IMG/VR virus record: IMGVR_UViG_3300032092_000057
Coordinates: 1 to 46,723 of that record
Direction: 5' to 3' (one strand)
DNA length: 46,723 nucleotides
From: a virus
The position numbers were made by a program, and so were the translations under genes. This document shows positions 363 through 16,950 of this stretch, piece by piece (position 1 is the first letter of the stretch; each line of letters starts with the position of its first letter). The notes under the pieces were generated by a model. The model did not search any database. It was given only the letters and a program-made list of their open reading frames with translations, and had not been told where the DNA came from.

Positions 363-391
363 TTGACAGGGTCTTTGTTTGGTGCTATAAT
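363..391 (+). promoter_or_regulatory. sigma70 promoter P2 with extended -10
   Basis: TTGACA at 363-368, a 17-nt spacer and TATAAT at 386-391, preceded by TGC (extended -10). It starts a few bases after the stop codon of the 56-residue gene. The downstream leader ends in AAAAGGAGCGCG. Confidence 0.9.
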
Positions 392-421
392 ACTTACATA
401 CAGACACAAAAGGAGCGCGAT

Positions 422-636: not shown

Positions 637-665
637 TAACACATAGACACACAAAGGAGCGAACG

Positions 666-1199: not shown

Positions 1200-1231
1200 A
1201 GACACATAGACAGCAACAAGGAGCGAACCAA

Positions 1232-2247: not shown

Positions 2248-2277
2248 ACATACATACACACACAAAAGGAGCGAGAG

Positions 2278-2790: not shown

Positions 2791-2804
2791 ATAGGAGCGA
2801 CACT

Positions 2805-3098
2805 ATGCGTACAGTACAAGAGATCAACCAAGCCATTATGTTTGGCGACTTCACCAACACAGACCTAGTATCAATCATTGATGCAGTCAAATGGAAACGT
2901 GCTACCCTAGCCAAACTGACCAAAGCGAGTTTGGCAGTAGGTGATTCAGTAGAGTTTACCAGCTCAAAGACAGGCATGACATTGATTGGCCGTGTAGAGA
3001 AGATAGCCATTAAATATGTAACGGTCAGAACCAATCAGGGTGCATGGCGAGTGCCGGCTAACATGTTGTCCAAATTGGATGACTTAGTAGCCGCTTAA
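2805..3098 (+). CDS. hypothetical protein with SH3-like/KOW-type beta region (97 aa)
   Basis: Residues 1-40 look helical. Residues 45-90 have the alternating pattern of a small beta barrel (VGDSVEFTSS, GRVEKIAIKYVTVRT, WRVPANML), which resembles SH3-like nucleic-acid or protein binding modules seen in several phage small proteins. The specific family is not recognised. ATG follows ATAGGAGCGACACT, so it shares the GGAGCGA ribosome-binding site. Confidence 0.72.
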   Translation: MRTVQEINQAIMFGDFTNTDLVSIIDAVKWKRATLAKLTKASLAVGDSVEFTSSKTGMTLIGRVEKIAIKYVTVRTNQGAWRVPANMLSKLDDLVAA

Positions 3099-3107
3099 TA
3101 GTATAAT
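3079..3107 (+). promoter_or_regulatory. sigma70 promoter P10 (weaker -35)
   Basis: ATGACT at 3079-3084 (one mismatch to TTGACT), a 17-nt spacer and TATAAT at 3102-3107. The leader is a CA-rich stretch ending in ATAGGAGCGAACTTG before the ATPase ATG. Confidence 0.75.
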
Positions 3108-3142
3108 AGACACACACACAAACACACATAGGAGCGAACTTG

Positions 3143-4048
3143 ATGACTAAAGGATACAGAGTTTTGAGCTTAGAGACCGCAAAGAGCAAGCCATCAAAGG
3201 CTACTAGTACAGGCTTTGACATCGACACAGATGCGCTCAAAGCCAAAGAACAACAACTGGCAGGCGTAACAGATGACGAGATCATGGAACGCTTGCGCAC
3301 ACGATTCAACATCTTGGACGACATGACACGTGCCGTTAAGAAGGGTGATGTACGTGCTATGATCGTTACAGGCCCTCCGGGTGTAGGCAAATCGTTTGGT
3401 GTAGAGAAGGTACTGTCAAAGCACGATGTGTTCGCAGATGTAGCACAGAACGAGAAGCTGAAGAAGTATGAAGTGGTCAAGGGCGCTATGAGTGCTATTG
3501 GACTCTACAGTAAGCTGTACGAGTACTCAGACAAGAAGAGCATCCTAGTGTTCGATGACTGTGACTCAGTGCTGTTAGATGACCTTAGCCTTAACATCCT
3601 TAAGGCAGCATTGGACAGCTCAAAGAAGCGTATGATCCATTGGAACACAGACTCACGCTTGTTGCGCTCAGAGGGTGTGCCTAACTCATTCGAGTTTAAG
3701 GGTGGTGCTATCTTTATTACTAACATCAAGTTTGACAACGTGCGCTCTAAGAAGCTACGTGATCACTTGGAAGCATTAGAGAGCCGTTGCCACTACTTGG
3801 ACTTGACTATTGACACAGAGCGTGAGAAGTTGTTGCGTATTAGACAAGTGGTTAGCGAGTGCGGTATGCTAGATGACTACGAGTTTAGCGACTTAGAGAA
3901 AGAAGTATTGATTGACTTTGTAGATGATAACAAGAAGAAGCTGCGGGAACTGTCATTGCGTACAGTACTAAAGATAGCAGACTTGAAGCGTAGTATGCCC
4001 AGCAATTGGCGTGCTGTTGCAGAGGTTACATGTATGCGTAGAGCATAA
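3143..4048 (+). CDS. AAA-family ATPase
   Basis: A P-loop ATPase of 301 residues. The Walker A motif GPPGVGKS is at about residues 77-84, Walker B ILVFDD at about 134-139, and a sensor-like FITN at about 191-194. An Arg near residue 215 could act as an arginine finger. The length suits a single AAA module with a helical C-terminal lid. Partner and substrate are unknown. A TTG one codon earlier is open, but the ATG at the GGAGCGAACTTG site is preferred. It is the last and largest gene of the early module and is directly followed by a structured RNA whose loops are complementary to this gene's own ribosome-binding site. Confidence 0.88.
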   Translation: MTKGYRVLSLETAKSKPSKATSTGFDIDTDALKAKEQQLAGVTDDEIMERLRTRFNILDDMTRAVKKGDVRAMIVTGPPGVGKSFGVEKVLSKHDVFADVAQNEKLKKYEVVKGAMSAIGLYSKLYEYSDKKSILVFDDCDSVLLDDLSLNILKAALDSSKKRMIHWNTDSRLLRSEGVPNSFEFKGGAIFITNIKFDNVRSKKLRDHLEALESRCHYLDLTIDTEREKLLRIRQVVSECGMLDDYEFSDLEKEVLIDFVDDNKKKLRELSLRTVLKIADLKRSMPSNWRAVAEVTCMRRA

Positions 4049-4050
4049 CT

Positions 4051-4193
4051 GTAGCAGGGCTAGGCCCTGTAGAGTACACTCTAAGTCCGATTCGCTCCCG
4101 GCTGTGTATTTAGCAGGCTAGCCCATGTAAACACTGAGAGGTGTTTCAATCCTAACTGATCCGATTCGCTCCCGGTAGGTTAGGATTTTTTTT
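4051..4193 (+). ncRNA. candidate small RNA with two anti-Shine-Dalgarno loops
   Basis: The segment contains two copies of the 16-mer TCCGATTCGCTCCCGG (4086-4101 and 4160-4175). In each, CCG and CGG can close a 9-nt loop ATTCGCTCC; TTCGCTCC is the reverse complement of GGAGCGAA at the starts of the genes at 666, 1232 and 3143. Outer stems are TACAC/GTGTA (4075-4079 with 4104-4108) for copy 1 and AATCCTAAC/GTTAGGATT (4148-4156 with 4179-4187) for copy 2, the latter being a terminator. Other hairpins are CAGGGC/GCCCTG (4055-4069), TAGAGT/ACTCTA (4070-4083, excluding the copy 1 stem) and AAACAC/GTGTTT (4129-4146). No dedicated promoter was found, so it may be cut from the ATPase mRNA. The regulatory role is inferred. 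Confidence 0.55.
4148..4193 (+). terminator. intrinsic terminator of the early module
   Basis: A 9-bp perfect stem AATCCTAAC/GTTAGGATT is followed by a run of eight T (4186-4193). Its 22-nt apical part is unusually large for a terminator and contains the second anti-Shine-Dalgarno sequence. Confidence 0.8.
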
Positions 4194-16524: not shown

Positions 16525-16950
16525 TTACTGATATTCGTAATTAATAGTTTCGAGATTTTCTTGTAGAGTAAATGCACCGTTTTTGTGATGAAATACACGG
16601 GCCATTTCTGTTTTAGGGCTTAATGTTACCCAACGCTTTATAGACTGTTTATTTTCTTTAATATACAGTTGAGCTTCTCTAATCAATTTACGACCAGCTC
16701 CTGGTGTGTAACTCCAAATAGTGTAAAATGCCGCAACGTTTTCACCCGTTGTACCTAACTCACTTTCAGTTGTAGGAACTGCATCAAGATAGGCAACACA
16801 AGTTACTGCCGCTGGAACATTATCATTTAACAGTACAAAAATTTCTGCATGGTCGTGTACTCTACTGCTACTTGGAATAGCAGGACGGACTGGGTCGTCT
16901 TTGATTAGATCGATTAAGGGATCGTTAAGATCTTTGATTATGTGCAACAT
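16525..16950 (-). CDS. GNAT-like acetyltransferase (141 aa)
   Basis: Length and pattern fit a compact GNAT fold. An N-terminal strand is followed by a central strand VAAFYTIWSYTPGAGRKLIREA, where GAGRKLI occupies the position of the acetyl-CoA binding loop and helix. Next come IKRWVTLSP and a C-terminal part with ARVFHHKNGAF, which resembles the late GNAT motif. Substrate unknown. Its leader contains an 8-bp inverted repeat (16952-16959 with 16990-16997), and the bases just before ATG (AGCGAATC) are complementary to the loops of the RNA at 4051-4193. Confidence 0.6.
   Translation of the reverse strand: MLHIIKDLNDPLIDLIKDDPVRPAIPSSSRVHDHAEIFVLLNDNVPAAVTCVAYLDAVPTTESELGTTGENVAAFYTIWSYTPGAGRKLIREAQLYIKENKQSIKRWVTLSPKTEMARVFHHKNGAFTLQENLETINYEYQ

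Follow-up and report, generated by a model that had tools for sequence, protein, structure and literature searches.

What is the role of the 145 nt that follow the stop codon of an AAA ATPase gene in the early module of an uncultivated phage, and do the two copies of an anti-Shine-Dalgarno (anti-SD) motif in this segment act on the ribosome-binding sites (RBSs) of the same module? The window, by which we mean the whole viral contig of 46,723 bp that was analyzed, carries a T4-like gene set with UvsX, a DNA helicase, a DnaB-like helicase, a single-strand DNA-binding protein and a baseplate wedge/tail-fiber connector. The early module consists of small genes on the + strand in the first 4 kb, of which the AAA ATPase gene is the last, and most of them have their own near-perfect sigma70 promoter and an A-rich leader. 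The replication and structural genes are on the minus strand, and several genes on that strand are preceded by a TAAATA box of the T4-late type. A tRNA-Arg (TCT) is located at positions 52-126, at the very start of the early module and immediately 5' of the first promoter. DNA similarity to named phages was restricted to short tail-fiber matches for the first 20 kb of the window, and a search of genome contigs for ATPase relatives that might name the host found none.

The segment is predicted to fold as two hairpins, the second a spacer, followed by an intrinsic terminator. The promoters, the source gene and the parts of the element are as follows:

363..391, + strand: perfect TTGACA-17-TATAAT promoter, one of six in the early module (the others start at 608, 908, 1171, 2219 and 2651)
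3079..3107, + strand: sigma70-like promoter ATGACT-17-TATAAT, the nearest strong candidate for transcribing the ATPase gene and the RNA
3143..4048, + strand: AAA ATPase (phrog_1250, 301 aa), both source gene and putative target
4049..4193, + strand: candidate regulatory RNA, either the 3' UTR belonging to the AAA-ATPase mRNA or a small RNA released from this mRNA by processing; the 3' end is the terminator U-run
4086..4101, + strand: core of hairpin 1 (CCG stem, AUUCGCUCC loop, CGG stem) with the anti-SD loop at 4090-4098, from repeat search, predicted fold and unpaired probability
4129..4146, + strand: spacer hairpin AAACAC..GUGUUU without an anti-SD loop, from the predicted fold
4148..4193, + strand: intrinsic terminator hairpin, whose loop at 4164-4172 (AUUCGCUCC) is the second anti-SD loop, with U8 at 4186-4193, from predicted fold and unpaired probability

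The first and last hairpins display the identical loop AUUCGCUCC, in both cases 9 nt long and closed by a G-C pair, with mean predicted unpaired probabilities of 0.96 and 0.99. The repeated unit TCCGATTCGCTCCCGG is found at 4086-4101 and 4160-4175 (two copies at no more than 3 mismatches, as compared to 0.04 expected), and the MFE z-score of the element is -3.7. Furthermore, UUCGCUCC is exactly complementary to GGAGCGAA, which several early genes share as their RBS. An earlier note on this DNA had described two copies of the unit after the ATPase gene, with exposed loops exactly complementary to the early RBS and the second copy in the loop of the intrinsic terminator, and the coordinates, the predicted unpaired probabilities and the U8 run behind the hairpin agree with this description. 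The same note had suggested that pairing of TAGAGT/ACTCTA as an alternative to TACAC/GTGTA could act as a switch. This idea was rejected: relatives do not keep TAGAGT/ACTCTA, whereas the outer helix TACAC/GTGTA is kept (as TACTG/CAGTA in loci L007 and L012, and as TACGC/GTGTA in L033). The sequence immediately 5' of the element did not reveal a strong promoter dedicated to it, and the element may thus be only a 3' UTR. The anatomy and the predicted hairpin loops are read from the sequence itself, and the 5' end, processing and any need for Hfq are inferred, as there are no RNA data for these phages.

The early RBSs that match the loop are listed below, with the predicted duplex energies for the loop versus the 16S anti-SD:

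656..663, + strand: GGAGCGAA, gene 666-911 (-13.9 vs -8.6 kcal/mol)
1220..1227, + strand: GGAGCGAA, gene 1232-1543 (-14.3 vs -7.7 kcal/mol)
3131..3138, + strand: GGAGCGAA, AAA ATPase (ATG at 3143), putative autoregulatory target (-13.9 vs -7.5 kcal/mol)
2268..2274, + strand: GGAGCGA, gene 2278-2667, 7/8 nt match (-13.4 vs -8.6 kcal/mol)
2794..2800, + strand: GGAGCGA, gene 2805-3098, 7/8 nt match (-13.1 vs -6.5 kcal/mol)
412..417, + strand: GGAGCG, gene 422-619, weaker candidate (-11.2 vs -11.2 kcal/mol)

Five copies of GGAGCGAA are present in the window as compared to 0.48 expected, a number not reached in any of 100 shuffles. Three are RBSs of early genes on the + strand, two are inverted in the loops (4091-4098 and 4165-4172), and there are no others in the window. 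For the five best leaders, the predicted energy of pairing with one loop ranged from -13.1 to -14.3 kcal/mol, as compared to -6.5 to -8.6 kcal/mol for the 16S anti-SD, and masking of the SD is the likely effect since the former pairing is predicted to be stronger. The mean predicted loop pairing of the minus-strand leaders was -4.5 kcal/mol, and GGAGCG was observed in the leaders of none of the 38 minus-strand genes. All sites named in the earlier note were located, namely the shared RBS ahead of the ATGs at 666, 1232 and 3143, GGAGCGA before 2278 and 2805, and GGAGCG before 422. Its proposal that one RNA could reach most of the early module, including its own upstream gene, was only partly upheld: the ATPase RBS does match, but approximately 5-6 of the 11 early genes are covered, because different SDs precede those at 965, 1607, 1700 and 1924 (GGAGCCCA, GGAGCAGAG in two cases, and GGAGTGG). 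Even a 6-nt match is missing from 5 of the 11. On the minus strand, the leader of gene 16525-16950 (141 aa, no family) ends in AGCGAATC-ATG, which matches the other half of the loop over 8 nt, and an upstream ATTCGCTA could pair in cis with this AGCGAATC.

Three scans of viral contigs with ATPase proteins provided more than 200 related viral loci. The candidate RNA is kept 3' of the ATPase gene in the 65 distinct loci of the window's clade, where both loops are retained in nearly all and everything around them varies. Around the ATPase gene in these loci, the module strand contains 283 copies of GGAGCGA, 272 of them at an RBS, while each of nine control heptamers was found at 3-41 RBSs. For the L077 clade (27 loci), the corresponding number for GAGGGCA was 147 of 155, and the target heptamers are thus near-exclusive to early RBSs in both clades (>94%). 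The L082 clade has a matching RBS on the ATPase gene only (56 of 62 loci). The four letters that follow GGAG in 342 early leaders were C in 92%, G in 69%, A in 66% and A in 65%, and the tetramer CGAA alone accounted for 40%. The loop decamer GATTCGCTCC was counted exactly twice per contig in G001 (383 kb), G002, G004 and four others, with contig sizes of 383, 223, 148, 107, 95, 89 and 81 kb, and the control count was 0. The 148-kb contig G004 contains 14 genes with GGAGCG, clustered in a 10-kb early module beside the loop. The loop is nearly unique per genome and its complement marks the RBSs of the early module. Chance as the origin of the match between loop and RBS was rejected based on the shuffles, the repeat expectation and the whole-contig and heptamer counts. 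A simple reading is that the ATPase is autoregulated in one lineage (L082) and that the regulon is enlarged in the two others, with no evolutionary direction implied.

The sequences of RBS and loop were compared across the related loci. The pair is GGAGCGA/UCGCUCC in the window's clade. The L077 clade combines GAGGGCA as RBS with 2-6 hairpins after the ATPase gene, which have UGCCCUC or UGUGCCCUC loops. Sub-groups of the L082 clade have GGAGCAA/UUGCUCC, AGGAGCAUUC/GAAUGCUCCU (10 nt), GGAGCUA/UAGCUCC and, with a single bulge, AGGAGC(N)UAGAC/GUCUAGCUCCU, and a further pair among the related loci is AGGAGCUA/UAGCUCCU. Pairing of the ATPase leader with the loops of its own locus, as predicted with RNAduplex across clades, gave a mean of -14.1 kcal/mol versus -11.5 kcal/mol for permuted partners (0 of 5000 permutations). 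The L082 clade alone showed -14.8 versus -13.6 kcal/mol (0 of 5000, also without duplicates). The test is powerless within the window's clade alone and within the L077 clade alone, since loop and RBS hardly vary there. The longest complement between loop and RBS was 7.0-7.3 within clades as compared to 5.4-6.3 between clades. Matched states of loop and RBS sit in separate clades of the ATPase trees, and of eight loop changes, a coarse parsimony placement on these trees put five on branches where the RBS changes as well (approximately 0.7 expected), three of them to an identical new state. Joint change of loop and RBS had been set beforehand as the test of the proposal, and it holds over several independent switches. 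The pattern that would have refuted the proposal, a loop kept while the early RBSs differ, is not what the relatives show, though in the window's clade about 10% of the individual ATPase RBSs have moved away from the consensus (CGC, CGT, CGG, CTG). As judged from this co-evolution, complementarity to the target RBS is under selection.

A few loci displayed other combinations. The loops of L070 are GUCGCUCC and its early RBSs are mixed (GGAGCGAAC, GGAGCACAAG and GGAGCAAAG), while in L066 one standard loop is accompanied by a terminator loop UAGGCUCC. For the L072 phage, with GGAGCACA as early RBSs, no matching UGUGCUCC loop was found in the 10 kb of sequence searched, and the element is either elsewhere or absent. 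The nearest named relatives of the ATPase (PA5oct, 45.5% identity, and Klebsiella Tevenvirinae) have no such element after the gene.

The comparison also bears on whether the motif is displayed in RNA. At least two hairpins carry the same anti-SD loop motif, two in the window and 2-6 in relatives. Of 111 distinct loop contexts from the window's clade, 72% were predicted to fold with the exact 9-nt hairpin loop, as compared to 0% with shuffled flanks. The closing pair was G-C in 110 of the 111, and the second stem pair was paired in 97%, as C-G, U-A or G-C. The loop is thus conserved while the stems diverge with pairing kept by compensatory pair types. The test for an exact 9-nt loop failed in the L077 clade, whose predicted loop is 6 nt long (UGCCCU), the final C being part of the closing pair; the motif does sit in a hairpin in the folds of this clade.

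An exact scan for CCGATTCGCTCCCGG, from which unrelated matches in GC-rich coding sequences were excluded by eye, located this hairpin also downstream of genes from two other families, encoding a winged-HTH protein of approximately 91 aa (PF14090) and a protein of approximately 100 aa without family. In about 45 phages the loop is located in the 3' UTR of one of these genes, with AGGAAA or GAGGUA as the RBS of the source gene; a GGAGCGA RBS was present on the source gene in none of 56 such entries. In the neighborhoods of the two types of source genes, GGAGCGA was found at RBSs in 135 of 146 and 41 of 45 occurrences, often including the ATPase gene. A trans-acting RNA fits this arrangement better than feedback in cis, because the source transcript would not be its own target. 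Loops behind unrelated, non-matching genes point to action in trans, which is an inference from gene arrangement. In loci L088, L172 and L191, the winged-HTH gene is followed by two or three consecutive anti-SD loops, and L172 has an additional loop behind its ATPase gene, approximately 6.5 kb away. A sense version, CCGGGAGCGAATCGG, which places the RBS within a potential hairpin and is a perfect 15-nt complement of the antisense hairpin, was observed in L110, L111, L112, L131, L132, L163 and L166. It is located directly 5' of start codons, including those of endonuclease VII (PF02945) and a protein with a sub-threshold CsgF match, in several cases with a TAAATA late-type box upstream. The genes led by CCGGGAGCGAATCGG are possibly late targets read by loop-loop pairing.

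Taken together, we consider it likely, with a probability of roughly 0.78, that 4049-4193 is a 3'-UTR regulatory RNA with multiple anti-SD loops that represses an early regulon; its accumulation, its action in trans, repression as the outcome and the timing are inferred. The RNA would be made as the 3' end of the early AAA-ATPase mRNA, and the two AUUCGCUCC loops would pair over 7-8 bp with the GGAGCGA(A) RBS of about half of the early genes, including the ATPase gene, and block binding of the 30S subunit. As early transcripts accumulate, the RNA would accumulate as well and shut down translation of the early regulon, a negative feedback by which early transcription acts back on early translation. 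The replication and structural genes on the other strand, which lack this RBS, would escape. Several observations do not favor this model: a cis or autoregulatory role is enough in the L082 clade, where only the ATPase RBS matches; the window has five unmatched early genes; some ATPase RBSs of its clade have drifted; the element has no evident strong promoter of its own; and the other-strand gene 16525-16950 is predicted to pair at -15.2 kcal/mol.

The first of these observations would also be expected if the 3' UTR loops of an ATPase mRNA paired solely with the RBS at its own 5' end, for feedback or circularization, and the other early genes shared the RBS via duplicated leader cassettes. The location of the loop 3' of the ATPase gene in three clades and the resemblance of the early leaders to repeated cassettes are consistent with such autoregulation in cis. 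However, the phages of types B and C have the loop behind genes with a non-matching RBS, and GGAGCGA ahead of the ATPase and other genes, there are 2-6 loops per RNA, and the other early genes of the L077 clade have also switched to GAGGGCA. We therefore regard autoregulation in cis alone as unlikely, although it deserves to be kept in mind.

The sign of the effect is not given by the sequence evidence, and activation or protection of the early mRNAs, for example by keeping a nuclease or host RNAs away from the SD, would leave the same signature as repression. T4 RegB, which cuts GGAG in early SDs (PMC3014915), provides a precedent for such a nuclease. However, RegB was not detected in 12 related contigs by a search that finds it in a Tevenvirinae control, the pairing covers the SD and is predicted to be stronger than that of 16S, and the characterized RNAs with anti-SD loops block initiation of translation (PMC4132741), so we give protection or activation little credence. 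It is even harder to sustain that a single DNA-binding protein reads GGAGCGAA/TTCGCTCC as a double-stranded site near early promoters and terminators, without RNA pairing. Complementarity alone cannot exclude a DNA site, because reverse complements represent the same duplex site, but the sites are almost absent outside RBSs and hairpin loops, their orientation is fixed, and the conserved block begins at the SD itself. Moreover, a DNA site needs no hairpin, whereas the loops are found in hairpins with compensatory stem changes that shuffled flanks do not form.

In anatomy and putative mode of action, the element resembles known bacterial RNAs. The LhrC sRNAs of Listeria share a C-rich motif between loop A and the terminator loop, and these redundant sites bind and block the SD region of a target mRNA; unlike the element, they are cellular and multicopy with a generic UCCC motif, and no regulon of tailored RBSs has been shown to co-vary with the loop (PMC4132741). 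SmelA075/SmelA099 of Rhizobiales have three or four hairpins with the same anti-SD loop motif CCUCCUCCC and highly variable stems, but they are bacterial, the loop fits a generic SD rather than an extended RBS tag, and co-evolution of loop and target was not seen described (PMC3927594). The phage antisense RNAs P22 sar, lambda OOP and PAK_P4as15 are phage-encoded and act on phage mRNA, yet the accessible part of a phage-sRNA review (PMC12197685) presents them as antisense to single targets, with none recognizing an RBS common to many genes, and describes no comparable RNA. A cis-encoded antisense RNA of the sar/OOP type was rejected, as loops and targets are on the same strand at separate places. 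Rfam release 15 matched only the tRNA in the window at the curated gathering threshold, and neither the element nor an RNA of the L077 clade gave a relevant match at E<=1. DNA similarity of the element to named phages gave no meaningful match. The earlier note knew of no described phage RNA of such design, and a full-text literature search, which did not cover most subscription journals, found no phage equivalent either. New features are that the RNA is phage-encoded, that its loop co-evolves with an extended, clade-specific tag in the RBSs of a whole early regulon, and that it is present in unrelated 3' UTRs.

In T4, RegA and RegB provide post-transcriptional shut-off of many early mRNAs at translation initiation regions, RegB acting on GGAG, but these are proteins rather than RNA (PMC3014915). 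Neither regA nor regB was detected in the 12 related contigs, and both were found in the Klebsiella control; the absence is suggestive only, since the contigs may be incomplete. On balance, we lean towards a family of phage riboregulators in which the extended RBS serves as a regulon-wide password: a multi-loop RNA would read GGAG plus a clade-specific tag as a co-evolving lock and key, and may replace RegA/RegB as the early-to-late translational switch.

The element would represent an RNA-based counterpart, recorded in many uncultivated phages, to the shut-off of early genes that is known as the work of proteins in T4-like phages. Because loop and RBS co-vary, such a riboregulator can be read from sequence alone, which suggests a search rule for phages without expression data: 3' UTR loops complementary to the phage's own RBS consensus. 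The system also offers an orthogonal RBS/anti-RBS code. For this family, the relation between a one-gene autoregulatory form, as in the L082 clade, and a many-gene sRNA regulon, as in the clades of the window and L077, becomes directly testable.
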